A stretch of DNA of 64,000 nucleotides from an archaeon (GTDB taxonomy: Archaea > Micrarchaeota > Micrarchaeia > Anstonellales > Bilamarchaeaceae), in assembly GCA_020053355.1 (NCBI GenBank), contig JAGVNI010000016.1:1-64000 (forward strand), written 5' to 3'. The translations under genes were made by a program, and so were the position numbers. This document shows positions 20,101 to 62,277 of this stretch, piece after piece; the stretch's first letter is position 1, and every line of letters begins with the position of its first letter. The notes under the pieces were generated by a model. The model was not told the origin of the DNA, made no database searches, and was given only the letters and a program-made list of their open reading frames with translations.

Positions 20101-23100
20101 CGGTCCCCGACGGCGTCTACTCGCTTGAGGTCGTCTTCTATGAGAACGAGACGGTTGAAGGCCTATCGAGCTCTGACACCCTCCAGGGCAACTTCACGGT
20201 CGACAACAACCCGCCCTACCTGCAGTTCGAACCCCCGACCGAGACGTCCGGCTCAACCGCCAGCGGCAGGGATTACATCCTCGTGAACGTCAGCGCCATC
20301 GACATCACGCTGAACGAGATTCAAATCTTCCTATACAACTCCAGCGGCGACCAGATTGACAGCTTTGTTTCGGGTTCCTCGCCCGCGTTCGCCAATTTCA
20401 CCGGGCTTCCCGAAGGCCTATATTACTTCAACGCGACCGCATACGACCTGGCAGGATTCGAGAACAGCACGGAAACATGGAACGTCACGCTGACTTACCT
20501 CGCAATAGACGGAGAAGCTGCGCGCCCGGACCCGCAGGGATTCGGCTGGAACGTCACGATTCTCGCGAACGTCTCCAACGCGAGCGCAGTGCTCCTCGGC
20601 ATCACGCCCCCCGGCGGGAACGAGACGAACTATACGATGGCCAACCTGAGCGCAATCCTCTACGAATACAATTTCACGGGATGGGTGAACGGCACCTACC
20701 TCTACACAATATACGCAAACAACAGCGCCGGCTCATGGTTCAACGGGTCTGAGAACAACTTCACGCTCTTCCAGAACATATCAATCCAGGCACGGACCAT
20801 TGAAGACTTTTACATGGCAAACGAGACAATCAACCTCACCGACCCGGAGCAAATCAACGAGGACGCCCCGAAAATCAGGAACACGATATTCGGGGACGAA
20901 AACGGGATGATGCAGGCGAGGGACTCCCCGGTCGCATCCCGCGCGGCAATATCATATGCGCCGGGAGAGGGCATCCCGATTTCAGCCCATGTCATCGACA
21001 AGCTCGGCGTCCGCAATGTCAGCGCGATAATCCCGACAATGGGCGGCGACGAAACAGTCCAGTTGTCCCTCTCCTCAGGGACTGCCGTAAACGGCATCTG
21101 GAGGGCGCTCTGGACGCCCCACGACATTATCGGCGAGCATTACATCGTCCGGATAACCGCAGAAAACACGCTTCACATCAACCAGTCCTCGTATGTGAGC
21201 GTCGGGGACCCGCCCGGCCTGTGGATACTGCCAAACGGCCACGAGGACCCGAGCGGCCTCTGGTCGAACGACTTCAACGTCCGGGACGGCGACACCCATA
21301 CGTACGCAGAGGACAACTCGAACCCGGGCAGCGGGTGGGGCGAGTTCATCATATTCAACACGACCCAGATACAGTCCGACCGCGTCCGTGTCTGGGCCGA
21401 CTATGGGGCCCAGGTCGGTTCGGTCCAGGTCGATGTCTTTGACGGTTCGAAATGGGTGAACGCCCACAACGGCAGCATCACCAACCTGGCCTGGAACGAG
21501 CTGAGCTTCAACACGACCAACATCACTGCCGGGCGGTTCCGCTACAATTACACCGTCGGAGGGTGGATATACTGGCTCTACGAGTTCCAGTTCTACAACG
21601 TGACCACGTTCGTCAACCCTCCCGTGATATCGACAGGCGCCGCGACTTCGGTGGAAGAGAGCGCGGCGATACTCCACGGGACGGTCCTAAGCGATGGCGG
21701 AGACATGTGCCAGGTCCGTTTCCTGTACGGGAACGACACCAGCTACTCGAACTCGACGCCGTGGTTTAGCGACAAGTACACGGGAAATACGATCGGCTAC
21801 CGGATTGCCGGGCTTGAGAACGGCATGACCTACCACTTCATCGCCCAGATAAACAACAGCGCGAACATGACAAACGGCTCAAGCCAGTCTTTCACCGCCG
21901 GCCCTGCGGCCACCGGGTGGGCGAGCGCGACCGGATTCGACGACCCGGACGGAAGGTGGCTTGAGGAGGGGAACATGTACGACGACGACCTCGTTTCCGA
22001 GGCTCACAGCTTCCATGACGTCAACGACGTGGACGGCGTCTGGAGCTCCTACCTTTACGTGAACCGCTCTCCTGAACTCCAGACCCGGCGCATCCGGTTC
22101 AATGCCAAATCGACCGATATCGACCTTGCCGAAGTCGAGGTTTATTCCAATGGAACCTGGACAACGGTGTACAACTCCACGTTCATAGACAGCATCTGGA
22201 CCGATGCCATCTTCAACCTCTCGAACGTGAGCCAGGCGAGAATCCGCTTCCGCGCAATCGCGAACAACCGCGGATTCGAATACCGTCTGGCCGAATTCGA
22301 CTTCTACAAGTCGCCAGTCACCGCGTTTGAGAACCAGAGCCGGCTCGACAACTGGGGCCCGACAAACGCATCCTGCTACCTGTTCATGAAGACGCAATTC
22401 TGGAACGGGACGGACTGGCAAGACGATGACGTTGTCGTGAACGAGACGACCCCTCGCATGCTGGAGCCCTCCGATGTCCTGAAGCTGGACCTGATATGGA
22501 ACCCGAACAACTATTCCACGAACAACCTGAGCTTCGGAACCGGCGTTTACCGCGTGTACTCGGCCTGCCATGACAACGAAAGCAATGTCCTGATGGACTT
22601 CAACGGCACACTCGTCAACAGCACGTTCAATTTCACCTATGATACTACAAACCCCGAAGTTATCATCGTGAGCCCTGCCAATGGCACCAATTACACCCTC
22701 ACCAGCACTATTCCCATCCGGATTAACGTTACCGAGGATTTCTATGTGGCGACTGTCCTTGCCAACGTCTCCACCGCTATCGGTTATGAAATCGTGACAC
22801 TCGCATTCAACTCGACATCCGGGCTTTGGGAGTACGATTACCTGAACACTAATTACGTGGGCATTTACACAATCCGGGCAATCGCCAATGACACCTCGGG
22901 CAACGTGAACGACACCGAATTCGTCCAGGTGAATGTCATTGATATCTCCGCCCCGAGCGTCGTCCTCATATCCCCCCCGGACGGCTACGCCAACTCCACC
23001 TCCCCGCTGAATGTCACGTTCACATGCAACGTCACCGACAACTACGACACAGACAACATCAGCCTTTTCATAACGGACCGCTTCGGGCACAACTTCTCCT

Positions 23101-24443
23101 ATAACGGCACCACCCCCGTTTCCGGGGTATATACTACCGCCAGCTTCACGCTCGACCTGCCCCAGGGCACATACGCATGGAACTGCCTTGCATACGATTC
23201 AAGCAACAACAGCGCATGGGCCCCGGCCAACTGGTCCCTCACGATAGGCCCGCCGAACTGCCCGATAATCAATTCCAGCGGCGTGTTCAACCAGTCCGGC
23301 AATTACCTGGACGCGCCGAATCCGGCGGCACCCCTTGGCGGCTACGCCTGCGTGGTTATAGCATCGTCCGACGTGGTATTCGACTGCAATGGATACAACA
23401 TCACGGGCATTGGCGTCGCGCCCCCGACATATGGCGTCCTGGTGAACGGCTCGTATTCTAACATCACCCTAAGGAACTGCCCTGGAATCTCCAACTACAC
23501 ATACGGCATCGATGCCTTCCAGCCAACCGGCTTCACCGTCTCCAATTCGAGCGCGTTCAACAACACCTACGGCTTCTATTCCAACGGCACGGGGGGCGCG
23601 AACGCAACAGGCAGTTCGTTTAGCAACAACACCTACGGCGTCTGGCTTGAGGGCTCAGCCAACGCATCCCTTGGCAGCAACAGCATCGCCGACAACACGG
23701 GGACGGGAATCCATGTGGATGCCAATTCCACAAACGCCAGCCTGGTCTCGAACACCATCTGCGGCAACGGCTTCGACCTCGACAGCCAGGGCGGAAACGG
23801 CACGGGCTCGCTCGACCGCTGCGATTCGTTCATGGGGTGGAGCGAGAACAATCATTTCGGCTGCGAGTACTCGTGCAGCTCGATGTGGCACCGTTTCTTC
23901 GGGAACGCCAATGGCACCATCGTCCTCACCGACAATCCCGGCGCGGGAATGGTCTACAGCTGGAACGCGACTGCGATGAACGTATATTTCGCTGATTTCG
24001 ACTCGGCGATAGACTGGCAGGCGTTGGCGGCAATCGGCCAGACAACTGCGAATGCGAGCGCCTCAAACGACTTCATCGAGCTCGACACCTCCTTCAACAC
24101 CAGCTCATTCGACGACAACATCAACGCCACATACTCGAGCGACGGCTCGGCTCCAATCGAGACCGCCAACTACACGGTTTACGGCAGGCCTATTAGCCTT
24201 ATCCCAATCGCGAACTCCACCGCATTCAACACCAGCTTCGACACCGGCATCCTCTGGGACACATCAGACGGAGGAACCGAATACACCAATACAATAAACC
24301 AGAGCACGGTCTGGATGGTGGCGGTGAATGCCAGCTCGGCAGACACCTACGGGACGTACGACTTCCTTGTCCAGGTGCCGGATACTCTCGCAACCTATGA
24401 AGGGGGCAATGACGTCATATCCGTATATGTCGAACTGAAGTGA
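14136..24443 (+). CDS. Giant multidomain secreted/surface protein (3435 aa)
   Basis: Starts at ATG 14136 just after a TATA box. Order of parts: N-terminal hydrophobic segment (about residues 12-32, signal or anchor); Pro/Glu/Asn/Thr-rich spacer (172-272); a domain ending in a Cys/Trp motif (CAEWDFEGQLCTG, about 466-478); a propeller-like section with repeated YWNGSxWS blades (about 680-1100); an Ig-like domain; two tandem 410-residue repeats (about 1203-2026); Ig-like segments; two discoidin-like domains around a fibronectin-III-like segment (about 2355-2730); more Ig-like domains; a short beta-helix; and the C-terminal domain shared with the preceding gene. N-x-S/T sequons are dense throughout. 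The architecture points to an extracellular adhesin or glycan-binding protein. The substrate cannot be read from sequence. Confidence 0.85.
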   Translation: MAEGIQENTAKAVMPLLIFPLFLSLLTMTQLVNVTHVEGLADDFSGMVLEAVTASSTYDVPYEVLEKQDGEWILVNATLPEENYTLNVLSSSSSESNPGESGLSEPYITDVTFQDGLLPDFSNLIVSYESAGGPPAEIPHSFIAVEPGSWATLALERAPEPDESIIFAAHLEEPANPSGNETGSDVTTPEPVIPETPETPESNETSPEPPQEPVLPDDGNETGFSENGTSMNETQAAGLPEPEPALNETTDGILNETDDGIYVSDDSENSTLLIPGNYTIEAINETNETIGLYANLDSLVNLTNETLGNETQGLDATGGFVPPEFPASWGKPTSQKFQVRGSKGRSFDADISISRNGAEVSFGIGKGMPGFGVPGGKFDIAIKPDKNKSGSKEERPFAPIEEVRLKDVDLSSGDGFDLGLEYLSPNELPFGKSARQAFAIDPTMLSFTSGEVSVRAKGSELYKCAEWDFEGQLCTGSWEWQADIVPGEIYTISIGPDDPAWAEYNTTYGAPRCGNSSSPCYANSSLLQSRDSLVTPEPNQPNTLDSCADGSSGIYWMDESVENITVTDLNGTTFNAGDTVSVTATVYCFDATSDNINFLYTSSASSPSWTTVGYTDPCPLIGVNTITKTFVLDSVPGEHAVRVTIQFLGDTATTCGAGSYDDNDDVAFMVNGTDVPQPGDAVMAYRSNTGVFGVNSPKIRFWNASGAGAWGREIELQSAGSPVRFARAAWSPLSSKVVVVTQSDDGNLDGYVCMANCSRPGSWSYSSNIGAVLATTPPRRFDIAFETSTGDLILTYSVVSANTARDLAYKVLPSGTSSFSGLTEQYLDDSVHATNLVYSWVRMDSKPGNSQEIALVAFDVTDSDINSWIWNGSAWNNQTEISNAAASTAGYEALAIRYAADGSVAMVMGAEGANGTVDSKYWNGSAWSSAITFDVDGTDLNDVRWANLKADPASDDLQAVFTDNGADLTTAYWNGSTWSVTTGMDNAIDSAVARSADFEWNLTGSVGRLVWDTDGAGTTLSQRPCTPQCTGTTATSSAYAGTGAWVTMWRNPSSAGNVRILSARLNSFFDIGSYSFSSASAFSNYGDAAITSDTTVSTFESYSIAFNTSDATPPFINFTAPTPLNNTVIYVDNAYINVTVTDNTAVNTVTLEWNGTNQTINNTSGTSWEINKTGLVPGVYTYRVFANDSSGNLNVSETRRLVYGSRPSVIVLDPQGGTYDQSSYIPIAINATDSDNISKAIATITLPNSTQENITLVISPPGDNFNFNTIGIAWFIENWSISPSQTCVADINGTVPGKAFTSLYGDGSPYSDTYCSLVTTRPLYGDFDLNVSFDILASDGVDNAINFKLTEDRSSFSSKQAFLSLGNWTGEGRTYDVFVDDGSTSGYMLTRDTDDTAGKFRITRSGDNFTFYTWNNTDSSWTLENSSILNMSTVLFITMESESAFAGWGTMNVTWDNLTIIKSPYYIGSFNNTGQTGLYNIAFYVNDTLNAVNDSETANFTIAAINDPPTVPFILAPTIGQNVYGEFNITWSSVIEEENDTVQFNITLLNSDGSDNATIVADYGNASATNYPWDTSVYPDGEYSMRVTVYENETVDGLDNSYTLAGTFFINNAVPSVVVIAPLGGDYPDCLPVSISINASDSGGIDTAIATITLPDNTSVNITLDGGQTSDNFSVDSMGADWIDEATLVGPSQVCTVDIDTSVPGAAYTSLEGPDGLPLTTTLCSAISSQAIDGDFDISIDFSITGSSSIDHALNFQVLETQSSADATKLVFMTLSNWTGLGQNYEIYVNDGNITDYVMQRPTNDTSGRFRIVRQANNFTFYIWNNTASAWDLETVDFSEYNLSRALYVSFESESDYPGWGTMNVSWDNFNATYSNNTFAMFTDTCQIGLYNVSFYVNDTLGSVNDTEKTNFTIVDINNPPSSPYILAPANGDIISGQFNITGTQVFDQENDSLRMNITLLNPDYTFNSTIASDVGNATATFYEWDTTTVPDGVYSLEVVFYENETVEGLSSSDTLQGNFTVDNNPPYLQFEPPTETSGSTASGRDYILVNVSAIDITLNEIQIFLYNSSGDQIDSFVSGSSPAFANFTGLPEGLYYFNATAYDLAGFENSTETWNVTLTYLAIDGEAARPDPQGFGWNVTILANVSNASAVLLGITPPGGNETNYTMANLSAILYEYNFTGWVNGTYLYTIYANNSAGSWFNGSENNFTLFQNISIQARTIEDFYMANETINLTDPEQINEDAPKIRNTIFGDENGMMQARDSPVASRAAISYAPGEGIPISAHVIDKLGVRNVSAIIPTMGGDETVQLSLSSGTAVNGIWRALWTPHDIIGEHYIVRITAENTLHINQSSYVSVGDPPGLWILPNGHEDPSGLWSNDFNVRDGDTHTYAEDNSNPGSGWGEFIIFNTTQIQSDRVRVWADYGAQVGSVQVDVFDGSKWVNAHNGSITNLAWNELSFNTTNITAGRFRYNYTVGGWIYWLYEFQFYNVTTFVNPPVISTGAATSVEESAAILHGTVLSDGGDMCQVRFLYGNDTSYSNSTPWFSDKYTGNTIGYRIAGLENGMTYHFIAQINNSANMTNGSSQSFTAGPAATGWASATGFDDPDGRWLEEGNMYDDDLVSEAHSFHDVNDVDGVWSSYLYVNRSPELQTRRIRFNAKSTDIDLAEVEVYSNGTWTTVYNSTFIDSIWTDAIFNLSNVSQARIRFRAIANNRGFEYRLAEFDFYKSPVTAFENQSRLDNWGPTNASCYLFMKTQFWNGTDWQDDDVVVNETTPRMLEPSDVLKLDLIWNPNNYSTNNLSFGTGVYRVYSACHDNESNVLMDFNGTLVNSTFNFTYDTTNPEVIIVSPANGTNYTLTSTIPIRINVTEDFYVATVLANVSTAIGYEIVTLAFNSTSGLWEYDYLNTNYVGIYTIRAIANDTSGNVNDTEFVQVNVIDISAPSVVLISPPDGYANSTSPLNVTFTCNVTDNYDTDNISLFITDRFGHNFSYNGTTPVSGVYTTASFTLDLPQGTYAWNCLAYDSSNNSAWAPANWSLTIGPPNCPIINSSGVFNQSGNYLDAPNPAAPLGGYACVVIASSDVVFDCNGYNITGIGVAPPTYGVLVNGSYSNITLRNCPGISNYTYGIDAFQPTGFTVSNSSAFNNTYGFYSNGTGGANATGSSFSNNTYGVWLEGSANASLGSNSIADNTGTGIHVDANSTNASLVSNTICGNGFDLDSQGGNGTGSLDRCDSFMGWSENNHFGCEYSCSSMWHRFFGNANGTIVLTDNPGAGMVYSWNATAMNVYFADFDSAIDWQALAAIGQTTANASASNDFIELDTSFNTSSFDDNINATYSSDGSAPIETANYTVYGRPISLIPIANSTAFNTSFDTGILWDTSDGGTEYTNTINQSTVWMVAVNASSADTYGTYDFLVQVPDTLATYEGGNDVISVYVELK
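17743..20214 (+). repeat. Tandem duplication of a 410-residue domain set
   Basis: Two adjacent copies, 17743-18975 and 18976-20214. Each contains PSV(I/V)V, INA(T/S)DS, AIATITLP, PSQ(T/V)C, VPG(K/A)A(F/Y)TSL, GDFD(L/I), SLGNWTG/TLSNWTG, (K/R)FRI(T/V)R, NFTFY(T/I)WNNT, GWGTMNV(T/S)WDN, GLYN(I/V)(A/S)FYVNDTL, PP, ILAP, FNIT, NITLLN, W(D)T, DG(E/V)YS and YENETV. The middle part looks like a LamG/laminin-G-type jelly roll. This is an internal duplication within one protein. Confidence 0.8.
23820..24440 (+). other. Shared C-terminal domain (copy 2)
   Basis: Region of about 207 residues from CDSFMGWSEN to YEGGNDVISVYVELK. It matches the end of the upstream giant protein almost column for column (CEYSCSSMWHRFFGNANG is identical in both). 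See the copy at 13378-14004. Confidence 0.8.
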
Positions 24444-49244: not shown

Positions 49245-49760
49245 ATGAACCGGGGGATGATTTTCGGGATTGGCATGGTCGCCGGCGCGATGCTTTTTTT
49301 CATCCTCCAGCCCCTGCTGATGGCCCCGCAAATCACGACGGTCTTCTCTCCCGATGACGGCGCCAAGGTCATCGGCCTAATCGACAATGCCAAAGAGACC
49401 ATCGACATCGAAATCTACGTCTTCACATCGCGCGATGTCGTCGAAGCGCTCGAGAGGGCCAAATCGCGGGGTGTGCAAACCCGCATCATCATAGAGCGGA
49501 ACGTCATCAGCGACGATAACGACGCCATATTCCGCGAACTCGCATCCAAGGGTTTCAACATCCGCTACGCGAGTTGCGCATACAAGCTGACGCATGCCAA
49601 ATTCATCATCGTTGACGGCGAGGCGGTCCTGGTCGGCTCCCACAACCTGAGCAACTCGGCCCTTTACAAGAACCGCGAGGCGTCGGTGATAATCCGTGAT
49701 TCGGCGGCGGTCCATGACTTCATGGATGCATTCGCAACTGACTGGGCGCTCGCATCATGA
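49245..49760 (+). CDS. Membrane-anchored PLD-superfamily protein, single HKD motif
   Basis: 171 residues. N-terminal membrane segment or signal (about 5-27), then one phospholipase-D-type domain with the catalytic motif H117-x-K119-x4-D124-x6-G131-S132 and the downstream HNLSNSA loop. A single HKD copy implies a homodimer, as in the small bacterial Nuc endonuclease and mitochondrial MitoPLD. The probable substrate is a phosphodiester, nucleic acid or lipid, outside or at the membrane face. Its stop is 22 bp from the convergent AAA ATPase gene. Confidence 0.85.
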   Translation: MNRGMIFGIGMVAGAMLFFILQPLLMAPQITTVFSPDDGAKVIGLIDNAKETIDIEIYVFTSRDVVEALERAKSRGVQTRIIIERNVISDDNDAIFRELASKGFNIRYASCAYKLTHAKFIIVDGEAVLVGSHNLSNSALYKNREASVIIRDSAAVHDFMDAFATDWALAS

Positions 49761-50890: not shown

Positions 50891-50933
50891 GCGGGAAAAG
50901 CGCGATAATGACAGTTGTGATTAGGTGTTCGGT

Positions 50934-53900
50934 ATGACATCATTGAAATACGTTCTTGGCGTTCTGGTGCTCGCACTGCTGGCAGGCATGGTCTTCGCTG
51001 ACGAGCTTTTCCCTCAGGAAAGCCTGAAGGAGAGCCAGGTCATCATCACCCCTGCAAATACTGAGGGCTCAATCCTCAACCTGACAGTCCTTGTCTTCGA
51101 GCCGGCCACAAGCACCGGCGGCACGGACATACGCACTGTCATGGAGCAGATAGTCCAGGAGTGCGCAAGCGCAGCCAACCGCATGACGTGCATAGAGCAG
51201 AAGTCCCTCGAGAGGACCGCCGCGTCCAGGGACTATACGATGAACCTGACGTCCCTTCCGAACGCCCATTTCGTGGTGGAATACTTCAACCCGCAGGGCA
51301 ATGCATACCGCGGCCAGTGGACCGTCATCGAATCCTGCAATGATATCGTCACCGACCGGGTTGGTGTGGCATACCGCCCAGACCCGACAACCGGGGCGAT
51401 GATTGCTTCCAACTATAATTACGTGCAGTGCGACATCGGCCCTTCAGTCGGGCAGATGAGCAGGGCCTACATACGGGCGACATTCGTTCCGCTTCCGGAC
51501 CAGCAGGTGAGCCAGAGCTCGGCCGAATATGAATACTCGAACGCCCATGTCACCCCGGCAACCCAGTTCGCGCAGGACCTCCAGAACTTCATAAGCGGAG
51601 TCGCTGACGCAGGAGGCCAGGGCGTGGGCGCAGGCGGCGCACTGCCTTGCGTGGGCCTTTTCATGATAATGGGGCTCCTTCTGGCATCGCTTTACTTCTC
51701 GGGCAAGTCCCCGATAACCCTACTGGATATCACCACGCCGAGGCTTCCGACTCCCAAAGGCGTGACCGCAAGCGGCCAGATACTCGCGCCGTTCGGTTAC
51801 ACGGAAATGAAGAAGTCTGCTACTGACAAGATGAGGACCGCGGCAGCGGCCGTGGCGGCAAGCCGGGACATGCTCTCCGGCAGGATGGCCGGCAATTCAG
51901 AGCACGACAATCTTCAGCGGGATATCCGCGCCCAGCGCGGCACCGCGGCGGACCGTGCGGTCGGCAGCGGAGCCGCCAGTGTGGCCCAGGGCCAGGCAAT
52001 CGCCAGTTCGCTTGTCACCGCGGGCATGTCGCTCGGCATGCGCGGAAGCGAGCTTGCATCGCTCGCGCGGACGCTCCCGTACCACTACGGCGACGCGGAG
52101 CACAAGCTTGTCGCCCAGATACTCGCAGGCCTTGAAGCCGCAGGCGGAAGGCAGGCCCTCATGGCCATGACCATCCGCGATTACTTCTACGGCCAGGCGA
52201 CTTTCAAGCAGTTGGAAGTGCTGACAGCCCACCCCGAATACGGGAAGAGGAGCGCTGCGCACTACCGCCTCACCAACACGCTCGGCAAGTTCTATGGCGC
52301 GAACCGCTATGCAATCCTCAGCGGTGTCGTCATGGCAGGCACAGACTCCATGGTCAGGTCCGGCCGCATTCTCGGCAGGATGACCAAGGCAATCGCAACC
52401 GAGACGCCTCATCTGGCCAGAACCACGGCCAGGACCACGATGGAGATGGTCGGAGGCAAGCACATCGTCGAAGAGCTCGAGGCGCGGGGCAGGACCTCGC
52501 CGACAGCGGCTTGGGCCGCAGGCCAGCTCCAGAAGCACCCGTCCGAAGTGGTCGTGGGCAACATGTTCCCGGTGAACGACCGGATGTCTCACCTCTACAA
52601 GACGCTCCGCACCGAAGCCCTCAACGATGAAATGAGGTACGTGGTGTGCCAGATCTACAAGAAGATGGGCATCAACTTCCGGATGACCGAGGAAGAGCTC
52701 GCAATGCTTGGGCACAAGGATGTCGACATCCTGAAAGTGTCAGGCTTTTCGACCCTCAATGCGCAGCAGCGCGAGTCGCTCCTTGCGGCAGAGGCCGAGA
52801 TAAAACGCACCCTCTCGAACAGTACGCTCAGCGTTCAGGATAGGCTCAGCGCCCTTATGAGGGTCGCCGAAACCCACGGTGCGGTGATAGACCACCAGAT
52901 GGTCAACTTCACGAGGCGCCTTGAGACGATAGAAGCCTCGGCGAACCCGGACCACGTGAAGATGATACTCCTCCAGCAGGTGCTGGAAGAGCAGAACCGC
53001 GTCAAGCAGGCGGTGTCCTCAGGAGGCATGGCGAAGGAGAACGCCTATGTCTGCCACGTCGGCGGAGACACGCTGCGGGGCAACCAGATATGGGAAACCA
53101 TGGTTGGCCGCACGATGGTCTACGACGGGGCGAACGGCCACCTGAACGGCGGAATCGCCGAGGAGCTGCTCGGAGCCAGGCTCAAGATAGCGAACCGCCT
53201 TGCAGGCCTCGACCCCGGGGCAGCCGGGACCATGGAGCTCCTTCCGGAGCACATGAGGAACGCAACCGAGCTCAAGAAGGTCTCCGAGAGGAACAGGCAG
53301 GACCTGATTTCCCTCTTCACTTCCGAAGGTAAGCAGGAGTTCGCACAGTATGCCGGCAAGAGGAAGCTGTCCACGAACATCGAGAGCGCTTCCATATCCC
53401 AGCTCGTCGACTTCATGTACGGCGGCAACCTGCCGCGCAGCGGCGATGTGGACAAGAAGACAGGCAGGATGACCTGGTGGAACGCCGATGTCGAATTGGG
53501 CCTCGGAAAGAACCTGACCAAGGTCGACCTGAAGGGGCGCTACACGACGAATGTAGATGTCCGTGAAATCGCTTCGATAGGCGCATGGCTCGAAGCGCGC
53601 ATGACGAGAGGCAACATCACATACGCCGACGCGACAGTGGAGGCCCAGGTGAAGCGGCTGCCCGGCTACGCCAGCATGACCGGCGAGCAGGAGGCCCAGG
53701 CGATGAAGAAAATCGCTGTCACCAAGGCGCTTGTCGAGGACCTCGAAGTGAGGTTCAACTCGCAGTTCGGCCACAACGCATACGGCACGACAAGGGAGTC
53801 CATGAAGTTCTACGGCAGCATAATGGGCGGCTTCCTGGAAAAAGCCCTCGAAGACAAGAAACTGCCGAACAACCACGGGGACCTGATGTTCGTCCGCGGC

Positions 53901-55703
53901 ATGGACATGTCCAGCCCGAAGGACCTCTCGCACTTCAAGGACCTCCTTGTGAAATACGACAAGGAATACAAGGCCGTAATCAGCAAGCCGATGACCTACG
54001 ACGCAATCGCAGGGTCGAACAAGGCAATCGTGCTCCTCCAGGAAGGCGGATACGCCTACTACAAGAAGGGCATGATACTGAGCGACCTGGACCGTGTCAT
54101 GGCAGGCCAGACGGCTCTGCGCGACAACAAGGGCCAGCTCAGGCCGTTCATACCTGAAGATGTCGCCGTCACCTTCGGCTCGAGGGACGACCTCTCATCC
54201 CAGTACCACAAGGCTCGCATGTCCAACGACCCGAACGAGTGGAAACCGTTCATGGAGTCCGTGGTGAAATGGGCAAAGGAGGGCGGCCACTACAACTATG
54301 ACAAGGAGAAGGTGCTCGGCGCAGTCCTCATGGAATATGGCGGAAAGACCCACGACTACGACAGCTTCTGGAAGCACAGCGCCGTGACTGTGGAGGCGAA
54401 ACGCAACGTCACCATGGTAGCCCCGTCCGTGTTCCGCATGTTCGGCGTCGAGGCGCCGGAATTGATGAAGGCAGCCTCTCCGTTCCGCAACCTCGGCCTT
54501 GCCAGCATGGACATGGTGTCCAAAGTCGGCATAAAATCAGCCGGAGCGGTCCTGGACACATCATACGGGATAGCGGCAGTCGGCGGTGCCTACAGCATCC
54601 ACTCGAACGAGCTGACCCGGAGGATACTCTCGGGCCAGGACGCGGACAAGCTTACAGCCAAGGAAGCCGCGGCCTACCGCGACTATGCAGTCACGCACGG
54701 CGCCTTCATCCAGGCGCGCCAGTGGACTGTGGACAGGTCGCCGTTCGGCTACTCCACGTCGCACAGCACGCAGGGTGCTGATGCCGCGCTGTTCTCGCAC
54801 GGCCCTGGGCTTACCTTCAAGAAGAAGGACTACATCGGCGCGTACATGGACAAGTCCACGATGATGAACTTCAACGCCCTCTACGGCTTCCCGATGGACG
54901 CTTCGCGGAAAGTCATGAGCTGGTTCGCGACGCCGATTAGCGCGGCCCAGAAGGAGATGTCCGGGCGTGCAGGCCGGTGGGACACCACGGGCGACTCGTT
55001 CAGGACGCTCTACCACACCGAGCCCCGCGTGAGGTCTGCCATGCAGGCCCTCCTCAACCCGTTCTCGCTCAGCAGCGGGAAGCTTGCGGAGAAGCTTAGC
55101 GGCTTCACCGGCAAGTCGCGCCACTCGCAGGTGGCGGGCGAAGAGGTCATGCTCGGCCTGTCAGCCGATACCATGGATACGATGCAGACCCGCAAGGGTG
55201 TTGCCGTCGTAGGCAGGTACGGTGACGCCAACCCGCGCGAGAAGTTCTACGATGTCCGCAACGTCCAGCACCTCGACGCCCCGATGGCGAGCGAGCTGCA
55301 GAAAGACTCGGCGTTCAAGTACCAGCAGGACATCAACGACGCGGCCAACAACCTCACTGTCCGGCGCACCGTTTCGGCAGAGTCACTGGCCATAAAGAGG
55401 CTGCAGGAGATGATGAACTTCAGCAGCTTCCAGACGCCGCAGGGCAGGTTCATGACGCCTGTCCACTTCGCATTAATCGGGCTTGGCATACCTAACATGA
55501 TATCCAAGCACGTGGCAGCAGCGAAGCACGGGCAGCAAACCAGCATCGGCGGCGACATGAGGCGCAGCGTGAAGGGCATGTCTGAAGGCATGTCCCGGCT
55601 GATGAAGCCCGGCAACATGGTCTGGGAAGTCCGCTGCGCCCACTGCGGCGCGAGGGGGAACCGCCACCAGAAATGCGGCTCCTGCGGCAAGACCATGATT
55701 TGA
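50934..55703 (+). CDS. Giant single-pass membrane protein with C-terminal zinc ribbon
   Basis: 1589 residues from ATG 50934 with AGGTG six bases upstream (GTG 50925 overlaps that site). Signal peptide (about 1-23), an extracytoplasmic domain with paired Cys (about 24-225), one strong membrane helix (about 236-258), then some 1300 mostly helical, charged, soluble residues, inferred to be cytoplasmic. Near the start of this part are an Ala-rich AAAAVAASRDM segment and Gly/Ala helices. The last 25 residues form a zinc ribbon (CAHC and CGSC, about 1568-1586). I recognise no family. The single span argues against VirB6/TrbL. It ends at a T-run. Its neighbours suggest a scaffold for the lipoproteins downstream. 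Confidence 0.85.
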   Translation: MTSLKYVLGVLVLALLAGMVFADELFPQESLKESQVIITPANTEGSILNLTVLVFEPATSTGGTDIRTVMEQIVQECASAANRMTCIEQKSLERTAASRDYTMNLTSLPNAHFVVEYFNPQGNAYRGQWTVIESCNDIVTDRVGVAYRPDPTTGAMIASNYNYVQCDIGPSVGQMSRAYIRATFVPLPDQQVSQSSAEYEYSNAHVTPATQFAQDLQNFISGVADAGGQGVGAGGALPCVGLFMIMGLLLASLYFSGKSPITLLDITTPRLPTPKGVTASGQILAPFGYTEMKKSATDKMRTAAAAVAASRDMLSGRMAGNSEHDNLQRDIRAQRGTAADRAVGSGAASVAQGQAIASSLVTAGMSLGMRGSELASLARTLPYHYGDAEHKLVAQILAGLEAAGGRQALMAMTIRDYFYGQATFKQLEVLTAHPEYGKRSAAHYRLTNTLGKFYGANRYAILSGVVMAGTDSMVRSGRILGRMTKAIATETPHLARTTARTTMEMVGGKHIVEELEARGRTSPTAAWAAGQLQKHPSEVVVGNMFPVNDRMSHLYKTLRTEALNDEMRYVVCQIYKKMGINFRMTEEELAMLGHKDVDILKVSGFSTLNAQQRESLLAAEAEIKRTLSNSTLSVQDRLSALMRVAETHGAVIDHQMVNFTRRLETIEASANPDHVKMILLQQVLEEQNRVKQAVSSGGMAKENAYVCHVGGDTLRGNQIWETMVGRTMVYDGANGHLNGGIAEELLGARLKIANRLAGLDPGAAGTMELLPEHMRNATELKKVSERNRQDLISLFTSEGKQEFAQYAGKRKLSTNIESASISQLVDFMYGGNLPRSGDVDKKTGRMTWWNADVELGLGKNLTKVDLKGRYTTNVDVREIASIGAWLEARMTRGNITYADATVEAQVKRLPGYASMTGEQEAQAMKKIAVTKALVEDLEVRFNSQFGHNAYGTTRESMKFYGSIMGGFLEKALEDKKLPNNHGDLMFVRGMDMSSPKDLSHFKDLLVKYDKEYKAVISKPMTYDAIAGSNKAIVLLQEGGYAYYKKGMILSDLDRVMAGQTALRDNKGQLRPFIPEDVAVTFGSRDDLSSQYHKARMSNDPNEWKPFMESVVKWAKEGGHYNYDKEKVLGAVLMEYGGKTHDYDSFWKHSAVTVEAKRNVTMVAPSVFRMFGVEAPELMKAASPFRNLGLASMDMVSKVGIKSAGAVLDTSYGIAAVGGAYSIHSNELTRRILSGQDADKLTAKEAAAYRDYAVTHGAFIQARQWTVDRSPFGYSTSHSTQGADAALFSHGPGLTFKKKDYIGAYMDKSTMMNFNALYGFPMDASRKVMSWFATPISAAQKEMSGRAGRWDTTGDSFRTLYHTEPRVRSAMQALLNPFSLSSGKLAEKLSGFTGKSRHSQVAGEEVMLGLSADTMDTMQTRKGVAVVGRYGDANPREKFYDVRNVQHLDAPMASELQKDSAFKYQQDINDAANNLTVRRTVSAESLAIKRLQEMMNFSSFQTPQGRFMTPVHFALIGLGIPNMISKHVAAAKHGQQTSIGGDMRRSVKGMSEGMSRLMKPGNMVWEVRCAHCGARGNRHQKCGSCGKTMI

Positions 55704-55877: not shown

Positions 55878-55948
55878 CGTGCCGATGCTTTCCATTAACG
55901 ATGAGACTCCTCAATCATAGGACTACCTCAATTAGGCGGGAGGAACGA

Positions 55949-57055
55949 ATGTCGGGGGAGATAGCGCGAGCGAAGCCGATGGTATCGCAGCGCCCCGAGC
56001 TTCTGCCCGGCTATACGCCTCATTTGTCATACAAGTCTCCGCTCCGGTGCTATGCATACAATAAAAGCGGGAAGCGCGGCTTGCGTGCGGACCAGGTCAC
56101 CTGCGGGATGAACCGGAACACCCTGACCCAGAAAGCCCCGCACATTTCGTTTTCGTCGCCATTGGAGCATGCCGCCAACCCTATCCTCAGCGGCGAGATA
56201 CGGAACCTGGCATTGAGGTGCTCGCGCTCCCATCATAGCCACCCCTCCCCAACCAATCCGATGCACGCAGGATATGGCCAGGGGTATAACTCGCATCCGC
56301 ATGCGCATGGGTACTGGATGGCCGCACAAAACCCGCATGGCGCGCATTTCCGCGCGATGGCCGATGTTTCGGCAAGCGCTTTCACCCGGCATGGTGTTTT
56401 CTCAGAGGACTGGACGCTTCCAAGGGATGCCCAACCCGCGCCTGCAGGCCAGATATCGTCGGCCTCCCCGGCGCATCCGCCACCCAAGCATATTCCGGGC
56501 GGGAACCCGGATTGCCCGGGTTTAGCGGCTACTAACAATGGCGCATCAGCCAACCAATCCATATCCGAGCTTCCTAGCATCACCCCTCTATATGCCGGGG
56601 CCGGGGACTCAAGCCTGCAAATCCAATCCCAAGCATCTGAATCTGCGCCAAATGCGCCTGCAGGCGGCAACCCAGGTCCCAACACCTCCTGCGCGGCCGA
56701 TACCGCCGCCAGCACGCCAATCCGTTCATCCACAGCCAATCATATGGCGGGTGTCCGGACACCACACCATTTCATCCCTTCCATCCAAGGCGCAGTCCAA
56801 GGCATGGTCCAAGGCACTGCGAATCTGGCGGGACTGTTTGCGGGCCTTCTGCCTGCATCCGGCCAAACCCGTGCAAACCTGCAGGTGTCGCATACAACAT
56901 CCACCCAATCGGTGGGCGCATATTCCGCAGAAACTCCAAAGGATGGGCAGAACCAATCGCCAAATGCGGCCAAATCCGCCGGGTGCAGTTCCACTCGGGC
57001 AAGAAAAGCGGCGCAGCTGATTGTGGCAAGGGCAGAAAACCCGCCCCCCGAATAA
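55949..57055 (+). CDS. Ser/Pro/Ala/Asn-rich low-complexity protein, probable gene
   Basis: About 368 residues from ATG 55949, which has GGAGG five bases upstream. A leaderless start at ATG 55901 (384 residues) fits the TATA box equally well. Composition is dominated by Ser, Ala, Pro, Asn, Gln, His and Gly, with almost no predicted fold except a Gly/Ala/Leu amphipathic stretch (QGMVQGTANLAGLFAGLLP) near residue 290. No signal peptide. Its long open frame in GC-rich DNA and the matching Shine-Dalgarno favour a real gene, but overlapping minus-strand frames also stay open, so doubt remains. It lies directly upstream of the lipoprotein pair. Confidence 0.55.
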   Translation: MSGEIARAKPMVSQRPELLPGYTPHLSYKSPLRCYAYNKSGKRGLRADQVTCGMNRNTLTQKAPHISFSSPLEHAANPILSGEIRNLALRCSRSHHSHPSPTNPMHAGYGQGYNSHPHAHGYWMAAQNPHGAHFRAMADVSASAFTRHGVFSEDWTLPRDAQPAPAGQISSASPAHPPPKHIPGGNPDCPGLAATNNGASANQSISELPSITPLYAGAGDSSLQIQSQASESAPNAPAGGNPGPNTSCAADTAASTPIRSSTANHMAGVRTPHHFIPSIQGAVQGMVQGTANLAGLFAGLLPASGQTRANLQVSHTTSTQSVGAYSAETPKDGQNQSPNAAKSAGCSSTRARKAAQLIVARAENPPPE

Positions 57056-57072: not shown

Positions 57073-57101
57073 CCCGAACGCGCCAATAATAATCGGTGTC
57101 C

Positions 57102-59654
57102 ATGAGACCAGCAGTCTTCATACCGGCGCTTCTGGCATTGCTTTGCCTCTCATTTGTCATCTCCGGATGCCTTGCGAAACTAAACGGCGGCTCCTCGGCA
57201 TTCGAGCACGAATACCGCGACAACCTCAGCCGGGTGGCGATATACAACTCCTCCATGGCCGAGTTCTGCAGGCCTGGAAGCTGCTGGTGCATGGTCTGCA
57301 AGAACGGCACCAACATATTCGGGCCCCTCAACAACCTGATTGGCGGCTACTGCTACTATGACAAGAACTGCACGCCCGCGATGATGGCGAGCTACAACAA
57401 CCGCACGGCCAACCCGGACCTGACCGTCCGGCAGTTCATGATAGGGCAGGGGCCAACATTCGGCGATTTCGGCGCAGCCAACACGCAATGCTCGGACCGC
57501 CTGAGCATGTCTGTGCAATGGCTTGTCGGCTCGAACGTATCCCCGTACATACGGCCTGATGCGGTCCGCACCATGTGCTTCCTGAGCAAGGACATAATCC
57601 CGGTCTACATCCTCTACAGCAACGGCTCCAACATCAACATCACCCGTTCGCGCGATATCGGCACGATTCTCGGCACCGAAGGCGACGACGTCTTCATGGG
57701 CCGATTGTCCGACGGCCCTGTCGGCCCCGTCGTAGTAGTCACCGAGATGGATTTTGATCGGAGCAAGGCCGCGGAAGTAGCCAACCAGGTCCGCGCCATC
57801 GACCAGGGGTGCGGGAACGACCGGGCCAACAACAAGATATTCTGCTTCATCGCTGTCGCCCCGAAAATCAACGATTTCGAAGCCCTCGACACCGTCATGA
57901 GGGAGCTTGGCGCAGATGCCGACAAGGTCGACCTGGTCGCATACGGCATCAACGGGAAATACCTCCACTCATGCGAAGGCGCGCGGGCGAGGCAGCAGGC
58001 GCTGAATTTCTCATCATACGCCCTATACAACTGGAGCAAGCCGACAATCATCCCATACGTCCTTTTCGACCCCGGGACTAACGACACGGACAACTCGTGC
58101 ACGTGGGGCGAGAACGACGTCGTCTCAGCCTACGGGGCGTTCTTCCCCTTCGGCGTCACGACATTGCAAAAGCGCGGCGTCGTGGGCATAGCGCCATACT
58201 CATACAACACGTCCGGCGGCATAGGCGTCACGAACCCCCTGAACTGCTCGGACTGCGGCGTGGCGAGGACGGCATCCCGCCTGCGCGCCTGGTACGCGGG
58301 CTGCCAGGCTTATACCAACGTCACAAGGCCCTCAGGCAACGTCCCCTCAGGCTCGACGCAGATTCTCTTCGGCAACGAATCAGGCACTTCGTGCAACTCC
58401 AACACGAATTTCGATTTCATGCGCGGCTTCAGTTTCGCCGGCCGCGACATAATGCAGCAGCAGACCACGCAGCTCCGGGATGCGGCGCCGCTCCTTTTCA
58501 CGTGCGACGCCTGCCTGCTCGCGAACTCGAGCCGTCCTATCAGCGACATATTCGCGAGCCTCCGCCCGTCGACCGGAGCGGCCCCGGACCGTTACTGCAC
58601 GAGCTATCCTGAAATCAACCAATGGGCTAGCGCCCGCAACCTGGACCCGATGCTGGTCCGGGCTTTCGTGCTTACTGAAAGCGATTTCAACCCCTGCTCT
58701 GCCGCAAGGGTATGCAGGCAGGGCTATGACGACGGCCGGTGCTTCGAGCCTGGTCCCGGAAAGGACGAGTGCTATGACATGTCATACGATGAGATGTACG
58801 ACCCGGCGGGGAACTGCACATTCGACATCGCCCCGAATTCGGGCAGCGCACAGCCAGACTGGCGCTACTGTGCGGTCGGCATCATGCAGAGCCTCGAGCC
58901 GCCATACACGTTCTGGCCGGCATCAGTGAATCCTGATGGCGCAAACGGCCCGTATTTCGACGTCTTCGACCGCTCCGGTTTCCGCACCCTTGACCTGAAC
59001 GGCGTCAAGGCGTGCAATCCCCGCTTCAACCCGTTCGTGGCAGCCGATTCAATATGCATCGGGACTGCCAAGCTGGAATCCGCCCTCCGTGCCGCACGGG
59101 GCTGGATAAACTCGCACCGCGGCCAGCTGAACTGGGGCTCGGGCGACATTGACAAGGACAGCCTTTTCGCGGCATATGTCGCCGGCAACATGTATTCCGG
59201 CTTCTGGGGCAGCAAGTCAAGGTCGGCGGACCACCCGAGGTGCTCCAGCGGCGTCTCAAATGGCGACTGCTGGGCTTACGGCTTCTCGCTCAGCTGGGCC
59301 GTGAATGACACATACTGCGCATCAGACGCGGGCCAGGACGACCCGCACTGCGAGGGCGGCCACCCGAAGAAGAACCCTCCGTACGAGTGCTACGGCTACT
59401 CGGACTTCATCCAGTACGTGCAGGAGTGCGAGGTGCCATTCCTTCCGCGCAGGGTTGACCCTGGCAAGGGCAAGGTGGAGGCATTCCTGTGGCTTAGCAA
59501 CGGATGCCCGAACAACTTCTGCCCTGATGGCAAGAAGCTTTTCCAGCTCATGGAACGCTCACTGCCTGGAAGCGGCACCCCTTACATACCGGACAATCCG
59601 ACCTGCTCGACGACCTCGTCATCCGGCGGCGGCCTGAGCCTTGGCGGGGGGTAG
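57102..59654 (+). CDS. Large lipoprotein with lytic-transglycosylase-like domain (copy 1)
   Basis: 850 residues from ATG 57102; GTG 57096 is also in frame. Signal peptide with lipobox VISGC (Cys about 25). A Cys-rich segment (CRPGSCWCMVC, near 57-67) precedes an alpha/beta region with TIM-barrel flavour (PVVVVTEMDF, VDLVAYGINGKYL, IIPYVLFD; about 160-400). The C-terminal half has the soluble-lytic-transglycosylase set: NLDPMLVRAFVLTESDFNP with candidate catalytic E526, the GLMQ-equivalent VGIMQ near 592-596, and the AYNAG-equivalent AAYVAGN near 689-695, with inserted Cys-rich loops. It ends in a Ser/Gly tail. Substrate: a beta-1,4-linked aminosugar polymer is predicted; murein is rare in archaea. 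A paralogue follows directly. Confidence 0.8.
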   Translation: MRPAVFIPALLALLCLSFVISGCLAKLNGGSSAFEHEYRDNLSRVAIYNSSMAEFCRPGSCWCMVCKNGTNIFGPLNNLIGGYCYYDKNCTPAMMASYNNRTANPDLTVRQFMIGQGPTFGDFGAANTQCSDRLSMSVQWLVGSNVSPYIRPDAVRTMCFLSKDIIPVYILYSNGSNINITRSRDIGTILGTEGDDVFMGRLSDGPVGPVVVVTEMDFDRSKAAEVANQVRAIDQGCGNDRANNKIFCFIAVAPKINDFEALDTVMRELGADADKVDLVAYGINGKYLHSCEGARARQQALNFSSYALYNWSKPTIIPYVLFDPGTNDTDNSCTWGENDVVSAYGAFFPFGVTTLQKRGVVGIAPYSYNTSGGIGVTNPLNCSDCGVARTASRLRAWYAGCQAYTNVTRPSGNVPSGSTQILFGNESGTSCNSNTNFDFMRGFSFAGRDIMQQQTTQLRDAAPLLFTCDACLLANSSRPISDIFASLRPSTGAAPDRYCTSYPEINQWASARNLDPMLVRAFVLTESDFNPCSAARVCRQGYDDGRCFEPGPGKDECYDMSYDEMYDPAGNCTFDIAPNSGSAQPDWRYCAVGIMQSLEPPYTFWPASVNPDGANGPYFDVFDRSGFRTLDLNGVKACNPRFNPFVAADSICIGTAKLESALRAARGWINSHRGQLNWGSGDIDKDSLFAAYVAGNMYSGFWGSKSRSADHPRCSSGVSNGDCWAYGFSLSWAVNDTYCASDAGQDDPHCEGGHPKKNPPYECYGYSDFIQYVQECEVPFLPRRVDPGKGKVEAFLWLSNGCPNNFCPDGKKLFQLMERSLPGSGTPYIPDNPTCSTTSSSGGGLSLGGG

Positions 59655-59664
59655 GCTCATCCAA

Positions 59665-62277
59665 ATGCCTTCGGAAGCGGAAAGTTTGTTGAATAATAAA
59701 TCCGTATCCCTCCCACTATTTCTCCTGGCATTGATATGCTTCGCTTTCGCCCTCTTCGGGTGCCTGTCGAAAACCGACATGGGTCCTTCGTTGTTCGAGC
59801 AGGAATACCGGGACAACCTGAACCGGGTGGCGATATACAACTCATCGATGAGTGGGTTATGCAGGCCTGGAAGCTGCTGGTGCATGGTCTGCAAGAACGG
59901 CACCAACATATTCGGTCCCCTCACCAACCTGATCGGCGGCTATTGCTACTATGACAAGAACTGCACGCCGGAGCAGATGGCAAGATATGCCAACTACAAC
60001 AACTCCGGCGACCCAAGCCTTTCAGTCCGGGCATTCATGATTGGCCAAGGGCCCACTTTCGGCGATTTCGGCGCTGCCAATACCCAGTGCTCGGACCGCC
60101 TGAGCATGTCCGTGCAGTGGTTGGTTGGGACGAACGAATCGCCATACCTGCGTCCCGACGCAGTCCGTTCCATGTGCTTCCTCAGCAAGGACATAATCCC
60201 GGTCTACATCCTCTACAGCAACGGCACCAACATCAACATCACGCGCTCGCGGGAAATCGGCACGATTCTCGGCACTGAAGGCGATGACGTCTTCATGGGA
60301 AGGCTGTCCGACGGCCCGGTCGGGCCGGTCGTAGTAGTCACCGAGATGGATTTCGATAAAAGCAAGGCTGCGGAAATTGCCAACCAGGTCCGCGCAATCG
60401 ACCAGGGGTGCAGGAATGATAGGGCTAACAATAAGATATTCTGCTTCATCGCAGTCGCCCCGAAGATAAACGATTTCGAGGCGCTTGACGCAGTCATGCG
60501 GGAATTAAGCGCGGACCGCGACAAGGTCGACCTTGTCGCATACGGCATCAACGGCAAATACCTCCACTCATGCGACGGGGCGAGGGCGAGGCAGCAGGCC
60601 CTGAATTTCTCCTCATACGCCCTATACAACTGGAGCAAGCCGACAATCATCCCATACGTCCTTTTCGACCCAGGGACCAACGACACGGACAATTCGTGCA
60701 CGTGGGGCGAGAACGACGTCGTCTCAGCCTACGGGGCGTTCTTCCCCTTCGGAGTCACGACATTGCAGAAGCGCGGCGTAGTGGGCATCGCGCCGTATTC
60801 TTTCAACACCTCGGGCGGCATAGGAGTCACCAACCCACTTAACTGCTCAGATTGCGGCGTGGCGAGGACTCAATCGCGCCTGCGCGCATGGTACGGCGGC
60901 TGCCAGGCGTACACGAACGTGACCCGGCCTTCGGGCAGCAATCCGTCCGGATCCACGCTGATACTTTTCGGAAACGAATCCGGGACCACCTGCAACGTCA
61001 ATACAAATTTTGATTACATGCGGGGCTTCAGTTTCGCCGGCCAGGATATCATGCAGCAGCAAGCCAATGGGCTTCGGGAGGCCGCGCCGCTCCTTTTCAC
61101 ATGCGACGCCTGCCTGCTCGCGAACGCAAGCCGCCCTGTCAGCGATATGTTCCCGAGCCTCCACCCCTCAACCGGCGTGCCGCCTGACCGCTACTGCACG
61201 AGCTATCCTGAAATCAACCAGTGGGCGAGCGCCCGCAACCTCGACCCGATGCTGGTGCGGGCATTCGTGCTTACTGAAAGCGATTTCAACCCCTGCTCAG
61301 CCGCAAGGGTGTGCCGGCAGGGCTATGACGATGGCCGCTGCTTCGAACCTGGGCCCGGAAAGGACGAATGCTATGACAATGCATATGATGAGATGTACGA
61401 CCTCCCGACCGGCAACTGCACATTCGACATCGCCCCCAATTCAGGCAGCACCCAGCCGGATTGGCGCTACTGCGCCCTGGGGCTGATGCAGACTCGTGAA
61501 CCCCCATTCACTTTCTGGCCTTCAACCATGCGTTCGGACGGAATGAACGGCCCTTACTTCGACGTATTCGACCGTTCGGGCTTCCACACCCTGAATCTTA
61601 ACGCTGCCAAAGGATGCAATCCCAATTTCAGTCCGTTTGCGCCTGCGGATTCGATATGCCTGGGCACGCTGACAATGGAAAACGATTTGAGGGCGGCCAG
61701 AGGCTGGATAAACTCGCACCGGGGCCAATTGAACTGGCCAGCCAGTGATATCGACAAGGATGCCCTTGCCATCGCATATGTCGCAGGCAACATGTACGCA
61801 GGATTCTGGAACATGCCGGGAAGCGCGCGCGTCCCGTATGAAGGCCAGGAGCACCCGAGATGCTCGAGCGGCGTCTCAAACGGCGACTGCTGGGCTTATG
61901 GGTTCTCCCTTAGCTGGGCGGTGAACGAGACTTACTGCGCATCATCGGCGGGCCAGAGCGACCCCCACTGCGAGGGCGGCCACCCGAAAAAGAATCCGCC
62001 ATTCGAATGCTATGGCTATACTGATTTCATCCAGTATGTGCAGGACTGCGAAGTGCCCTTCCTGCCCCGCAAGGCAGACCCCGGAAAGGCCAAGGTCGAA
62101 GCCTTCATATATCTCAGCAACGGCTGCGCGAACAACTTCTGCCCTGATGGCAAGAAGCTTTTCCAGCTCATGGAACGCTCACTGCCTGGAAGCGGCACCC
62201 CTTACATACCCGACCTTCCGACATGCTCGACGACCTCGACAACGGGCGGCGGCGGCCTGAGCCTTGGCGGTGGATAG
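59665..62277 (+). CDS. Large lipoprotein with lytic-transglycosylase-like domain (copy 2)
   Basis: 870 residues from ATG 59665, 10 bp after copy 1; an in-frame TTG 59641 would overlap copy 1. Lipobox LFGC (Cys about 33). Same architecture as copy 1 throughout: Cys-rich CRPGSCWCMVC, barrel-like middle, and the transglycosylase set with TESDFNP (candidate catalytic E538), LGLMQ and IAYVAGN, plus a Gly-rich end. The proteins are very similar, and the DNA is mosaic, with long identical blocks (for example 62129-62210 versus 59509-59590) among blocks that differ at third positions, as gene conversion would leave. Likely co-transcribed with copy 1. Confidence 0.8.
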   Translation: MPSEAESLLNNKSVSLPLFLLALICFAFALFGCLSKTDMGPSLFEQEYRDNLNRVAIYNSSMSGLCRPGSCWCMVCKNGTNIFGPLTNLIGGYCYYDKNCTPEQMARYANYNNSGDPSLSVRAFMIGQGPTFGDFGAANTQCSDRLSMSVQWLVGTNESPYLRPDAVRSMCFLSKDIIPVYILYSNGTNINITRSREIGTILGTEGDDVFMGRLSDGPVGPVVVVTEMDFDKSKAAEIANQVRAIDQGCRNDRANNKIFCFIAVAPKINDFEALDAVMRELSADRDKVDLVAYGINGKYLHSCDGARARQQALNFSSYALYNWSKPTIIPYVLFDPGTNDTDNSCTWGENDVVSAYGAFFPFGVTTLQKRGVVGIAPYSFNTSGGIGVTNPLNCSDCGVARTQSRLRAWYGGCQAYTNVTRPSGSNPSGSTLILFGNESGTTCNVNTNFDYMRGFSFAGQDIMQQQANGLREAAPLLFTCDACLLANASRPVSDMFPSLHPSTGVPPDRYCTSYPEINQWASARNLDPMLVRAFVLTESDFNPCSAARVCRQGYDDGRCFEPGPGKDECYDNAYDEMYDLPTGNCTFDIAPNSGSTQPDWRYCALGLMQTREPPFTFWPSTMRSDGMNGPYFDVFDRSGFHTLNLNAAKGCNPNFSPFAPADSICLGTLTMENDLRAARGWINSHRGQLNWPASDIDKDALAIAYVAGNMYAGFWNMPGSARVPYEGQEHPRCSSGVSNGDCWAYGFSLSWAVNETYCASSAGQSDPHCEGGHPKKNPPFECYGYTDFIQYVQDCEVPFLPRKADPGKAKVEAFIYLSNGCANNFCPDGKKLFQLMERSLPGSGTPYIPDLPTCSTTSTTGGGGLSLGGG

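Follow-up and report, generated by a model that had tools for sequence, protein, structure and literature searches.

Tandem lipoprotein genes of a Micrarchaeota archaeon predicted to encode a divergent GH23/SLT domain fused to a TIM barrel

Most DPANN archaea are known from assembled genomes alone, and one question about them is which live on bacteria. A Micrarchaeota genome of 1.59 Mb contains two adjacent genes that had been described, from the letters of the sequence, as exported relatives of lytic transglycosylases, and this raises the question of what such an archaeon would cut with them. The genes (ORFs at 57102-62277) lie head-to-tail on the + strand of the window, by which we mean the whole 64-kb stretch of DNA that was analysed, located on a contig of 118 kb.

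The two lipoprotein genes and their family

57102..59654, + strand: lipoprotein copy 1 (P0001), with signal sequence and lipobox, Cys-rich linker, TIM barrel and Cys-rich GH23/SLT-like domain as predicted from ORF, family and model (pLDDT 84.6, pTM 0.83)
57162..57173, + strand: lipobox SGCL of copy 1 (Cys25 kept in 36/37 relatives)
57246..58535, + strand: predicted TIM-barrel half of copy 1, approximately residues 51-480 (full-length model, Foldseek)
within 57729-57746, + strand: conserved Glu217 of the copy 1 barrel
58563..59540, + strand: GH23/SLT-like domain of copy 1, residues 490-815 (model pLDDT 92.9, pTM 0.90; fold matches; hhalign with control)
58674..58694, + strand: TESDFNP of copy 1 with the candidate catalytic Glu528 (526 from the ATG), from conservation
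58878..58889, + strand: GIMQ of copy 1, aligning to GLMQ of SLT proteins
59016..59036, + strand: NPRFNPF of copy 1, first residues of the block that aligns with DPxxNIxxG of SLT proteins (hhalign, conservation)
59175..59189, + strand: YVAGN of copy 1, an SLT motif that is degenerate in the family, retaining Tyr/Phe but neither Asn nor Gly
59641..62277, + strand: lipoprotein copy 2 (P0002), probable start ATG 59665
59755-59766, + strand: lipobox of copy 2
61273-61293, + strand: TESDFNP of copy 2
61480-61491, + strand: GLMQ of copy 2
61777-61791, + strand: YVAGN of copy 2

The ORF of copy 1 spans 57096-59654 (852 codons) and its true start is probably the conserved ATG at 57102, the methionine of which (M3) was kept in 36 of 37 relatives; the ORF of copy 2 spans 59641-62277 (878 codons), with ATG 59665 as the probable start. 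Counted from these likely starts, the Glu that the preliminary description had placed at 526 (copy 1) and 538 (copy 2) was found at exactly those positions, and the lipobox, TESDFNP, GIMQ/GLMQ and YVAGN were present in both copies in the order it had given. A hydrophobic helix precedes Cys25, forming a signal peptide with a lipobox (ISGC in copy 1, LFGC in copy 2), and the conservation of this cysteine agrees with the export proposed earlier. Both genes are therefore predicted to encode surface-anchored lipoproteins with a lipid attached. The proteins are also as rich in cysteine as had been described, with 38 residues each.

The duplication was equally clear, with P0001 and P0002 sharing 85% identity. 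The dN/dS between them was 0.13 overall (0.09 for the barrel and 0.11 for the C-terminal domain), indicating purifying selection and hence that both copies are being kept. In the sister genome (G015) only one full-length copy was present.

Of 59 close genomes, 50 encoded members of the family, as did 91 of the 295 genomes of the phylum. Across 37 full-length sequences more than 25 cysteines, Glu217, Glu528 and G595 were invariant or nearly so. Glu528 was kept in 35 (Asn or Thr in two distant members) and the following Ser529 in 31, while G595 of the GIMQ motif was retained in all 37 and Q598 in 32. This spread, together with the dN/dS of 0.13 and the retention of Glu528, argues that the family is not a product of chance. 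Contamination by bacterial DNA was rejected, as the neighbouring genes are archaeal (topoisomerase VI subunits, TFIIB, RIO kinase) and family members occur across the phylum. A phage source was unsupported: tblastn against 50,697 phage records gave no match.

A divergent GH23/SLT domain behind a TIM barrel

As judged from profiles and models, the C-terminal half is a true GH23/SLT domain of divergent type. P0001 alone matched the Pfam SLT profile (PF01464) at residues 507-536 with an E-value of 0.06 and 13.4 bits, under the cut-off of 21.3 bits, and a search of its own genome with this profile gave no match; the whole family was therefore tested rather than the single protein. At E ≤ 0.1 the profile matched 14 of the 37 relatives, with 2.2e-5 as the best value, and in whole-genome searches true members exceeded the cut-off (G021:C87, 26.6 bits; G034:C160, 25.2; G005:C30, 22.7), so that the SLT/GH23 relationship proposed earlier was recovered for the family, with P0001 by itself falling short. 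Aligned by hhalign to 12 Micrarchaeota SLT proteins, the C-terminal family scored 98.0% (E 2.6e-13) over segments containing ES, GLMQ and FDP..NI..G, compared to at most 0.2% for 60 column-shuffled controls and 0.1% for an unrelated profile. A search of PDB sequences at E ≤ 10 returned six matches, all of them lytic transglycosylases or goose lysozyme.

The C-terminal domain was also modelled alone, because Foldseek searches with the full-length model (PDB, viral models) listed mostly barrel-type matches. Among the PDB matches listed for this separate model, 50 of 50 were lytic transglycosylases, goose lysozyme or Tse3. These matches were individually weak (best E 0.044 among the matches listed, none with E < 0.001; TM-score to MltE about 0.5), as expected from the long insertions. 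Profile matches, hhalign, PDB sequences and the C-terminal model thus all agreed on the lysozyme-like SLT fold that had been claimed, and the unrelated fold that had been named as speaking against it was not obtained. The family is real, conserved, exported and GH23-like in its predicted fold.

The SLT enzymes MltE, MltC, MltF, Slt70 and LtgA share with these proteins a helix bearing the ES dyad, G-[IL]-M-Q and a [DN]P..G block, in this order, as well as the lysozyme-like fold seen in the model, and the Mlt enzymes are likewise surface lipoproteins. The proteins described here differ in their long Cys-rich insertions between motifs, a degenerate YNAG, the TIM barrel fused ahead and their archaeal origin. 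The third conserved block, [FY]NPFxxxxxxCxG[TS] (residues 644-657), aligns to DPxxNIxxG of SLT proteins, and its G656 was kept in 36/37. Features of GH23/SLT enzymes that could be recognised by alignment and modelling are accordingly the sequence relationship, the fold, the Glu-Ser pair, GLMQ and the DPxxNIxxG block. The preliminary description had called the three-motif set intact, which holds for the Glu and for GIMQ/GLMQ but not for YVAGN: in this region, the register of which lies outside the profile alignment, Tyr/Phe694 was kept in 34/37 and Ala696 in 30/37, whereas Gly697 was found in 9/37 and the canonical Asn in 0/37.

In the full-length model the N-terminal half forms an alpha/beta (TIM) barrel, as anticipated by the preliminary description. 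Foldseek, run also against a viral library, placed it nearest to GH53, GH26 and GH5 enzymes (best E 6.5e-6), and this half had no Pfam match. Glu217, located where strand 4 ends, was kept in 36/37 and is the sole conserved candidate acid on the expected face; a conserved Glu at strand 7, the nucleophile strand of clan GH-A, was absent in the 37 relatives, with a nearby Asp325 in 28/37. Conserved aromatics of the barrel are W142, Y171, Y174, Y321 and W337. The barrel therefore has the TIM-barrel fold and the Glu ending strand 4 in common with clan GH-A (GH53 galactanase, GH26 and GH5 mannanases), but lacks the conserved second Glu on strand 7 and reaches a TM-score of only about 0.5 to its targets. 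With a single candidate carboxylate, the second glycosidase activity suggested earlier is doubtful, and the barrel is most likely, on present models and alignments, a glycan-binding or one-acid/unconventional module. Other families of the class have giant proteins of 2800-3450 aa within which part of the barrel half recurs (G219:C55:4012-4758, G146:C20:35291-35620, G104:C62:14773-15207).

A single-domain lipoprotein paralog in which the catalytic Glu is replaced by Gln was detected in three species, namely the own genome (G000), the sister genome (G015) and G006:

L032:8860-10281: Glu-to-Gln paralog of the own genome (contig C7)
L033:9213-10550: Glu-to-Gln paralog
L037:300-1496: Glu-to-Gln paralog

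It occupies the same locus in all three, near exosome and adenylosuccinate synthase genes, and the dN/dS of 0.19 between G000 and G015 indicates purifying selection on what is probably a conserved pseudoenzyme, a built-in inactive comparison provided by nature. Together with the Asn and Thr of the two distant members, it implies that some members can do without catalysis. These paralogs, with their conserved G000/G015 pair, the degenerate YVAGN and a barrel with a single conserved candidate acid would all suit a lysozyme-fold protein that binds glycan or plays a structural part, its activity having decayed in the family. We consider this distinctly unlikely, as a purely structural role explains poorly why Glu528 persists amid far more variable positions in the full-length family.

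The probable target

A search of 31 genomes of relatives for penicillin-binding transpeptidases gave no hit, while it matched 10 of 14 controls; some genomes encode a single Mur-ligase-like gene, insufficient alone for murein. The target is therefore probably foreign, which makes the external target raised in the preliminary description plausible and the simplest reading. We favour, with somewhat better than balanced confidence, surface lipoproteins that combine a disulfide-rich divergent GH23 lytic transglycosylase with a glycosidase-like barrel and would cut the walls of bacteria that are neighbours or prey. The lipoprotein would be exported and then lipid-anchored outside, where the barrel would hold the glycan chain while Glu528, acting together with the G-[IL]-M-Q loop and the aromatic residue 694, would protonate and break a beta-1,4 MurNAc-GlcNAc-type bond. 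This bond would lie in the wall of the bacterial neighbour or prey, and cutting would take place next to the giant membrane protein encoded by the adjacent gene. Fold, homology, the conserved Glu, the lipobox, purifying selection, adjacency to this partner and the negative transpeptidase search are computed results; from them we infer an active enzyme, bacterial murein as its substrate, joint action with the giant protein, and the topology. Counting against this reading are the score of P0001 under the Pfam cut-off, the weak fold matches, the degenerate SLT motif 4, the members that have lost the Glu, and the association of known Micrarchaeota with archaea of the Thermoplasmatales (PMC5864196).

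The same enzyme could instead be active on a glycan other than murein, either a surface glycan of the cell itself or the coat of a host archaeon. Relatives without a penicillin-binding transpeptidase, the retention of the family across the order, and a motif 4 and Cys-rich insertions unlike those of murein enzymes are all consistent with this. We nevertheless regard it as unlikely, given that the catalytic Glu and GLMQ block are as in GH23 enzymes cleaving murein and chitin and that we know of no GH23 enzyme with an archaeal glycan as its substrate. In its favour, known Micrarchaeota associate physically with Thermoplasmatales archaea, not bacteria, according to PMC5864196.

Lytic transglycosylases of DPANN archaea have been reported before. 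PMC5864196 gives one sentence, with no architecture, to a lytic transglycosylase in three Micrarchaeota genomes, which by description is of the same phylum and enzyme class as the proteins studied here. Large murein-like lytic transglycosylases (fam00969) are reported from Pacearchaeota and Woesearchaeota (PMC8204110; PMC9723730), a lytic transglycosylase from three oxygen-deficient-zone MAGs (PMC10936187), and PMC12352652 describes peptidoglycan hydrolases of archaea with which bacteria are killed. The Pacearchaeota and Woesearchaeota enzymes, compared here by description, belong to other phyla and have in common with ours an extracellular SLT domain, a small-genome DPANN archaeon and a proposed attack on bacterial walls. 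The literature searched, with partial coverage and hence as weak evidence, contained no description of a barrel-plus-SLT lipoprotein or of its giant partner, and this architecture with its partner looks like a new form of a known enzyme type. A surface-anchored enzyme of the class that cuts bacterial walls, kept in most of an order apparently without murein cross-linking enzymes, makes the question of a bacterial partner testable. SLT-domain matches over the Pfam cut-off occurred in 56 of the 295 genomes of the phylum, a wider distribution than the three named in PMC5864196.

A giant membrane protein as putative partner and the question of a transfer machine

49245..49760, + strand: small exported PLD-like nuclease/phospholipase, active-site motif present (Pfam PLDc_2, E 3.6e-29)
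50925..55703, + strand: giant membrane protein of 1592 aa, conserved partner of the lipoprotein gene (ORF, hydropathy, profile)
55901..57055, + strand: ORF of 384 aa between the giant and copy 1, a possible gene

Directly upstream of the lipoprotein gene, on the same strand, 29 of the 33 loci with upstream context encode a membrane protein of some 950-2200 aa. These giants are single-pass by hydropathy where checked, and a profile built on the window's giant also picks up the giants of other families. By hydropathy alone, the window's giant would have a signal peptide, about 210 exported residues, a transmembrane segment at 240-258 and about 1330 residues inside; CxxC pairs are located at its C-terminal end. 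The 384-aa ORF had a counterpart in this gap only in the sister genome G015 (392 aa), and the PLD-like protein neighbours the pair in 11 loci (cluster c7), part of the family. The lipoprotein may work together with the giant, and the pairing suggests a tool for acting on the walls of other cells. Its constancy also marks the giant as the gene to take up next.

Other families of the order carry six polytopic genes in a row, divergently oriented, beside the giant and the lipoprotein. The polytopic family was present in 58 of 59 genomes with about 20 copies per genome, often in clusters of six (L140:1-6991, L143:3294-11070, L136, L137, L138, L139, L144), and a VirB4/TraG-like ATPase was encoded in most genomes. 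As VirB1 enzymes belong to T4SS gene sets (PMC12102498), and are likewise exported lytic transglycosylases encoded with membrane proteins, the lipoprotein might be the VirB1-like wall-opening subunit of a transfer machine comprising the giant, the six multi-span proteins and the ATPase. We judge this very improbable. The polytopic proteins matched nothing credibly in Pfam, NCBIfam or PDB sequences and showed no sequence match to VirB6, the ATPase gene is located elsewhere in the genome, with no VirB4-like gene or, by sequence, other T4SS component beside the lipoprotein gene, and the window's copy has no polytopic cluster alongside; the cluster of the own genome is on contig C7 with a second giant, near the Glu-to-Gln paralog. 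Membership of a T4SS was not accepted, since the polytopic neighbours match no T4SS family by sequence.

A lineage-specific Micrarchaeota contact machine, in which the giant, sets of six related polytopic proteins and the two-domain lipoprotein open and reach into bacterial neighbours, is a speculative and improbable extension; if true, it would amount to a previously undescribed archaeal equivalent of secretion systems that penetrate walls.

The VirB4/TraG-like ATPase (about 530 aa; L150:7919-9556, L151:8415-10016, L152:8224-9798) had a similar neighbourhood in three families, with a single-span protein of about 270 aa adjoining and a membrane protein of about 850 aa close by. In the window, the giant ORFs at 214-14007 (4597 aa) and 14136-24443 (3435 aa) are probably surface proteins and have related C-terminal ends (..TYEG.ND..S.Y.EL.).
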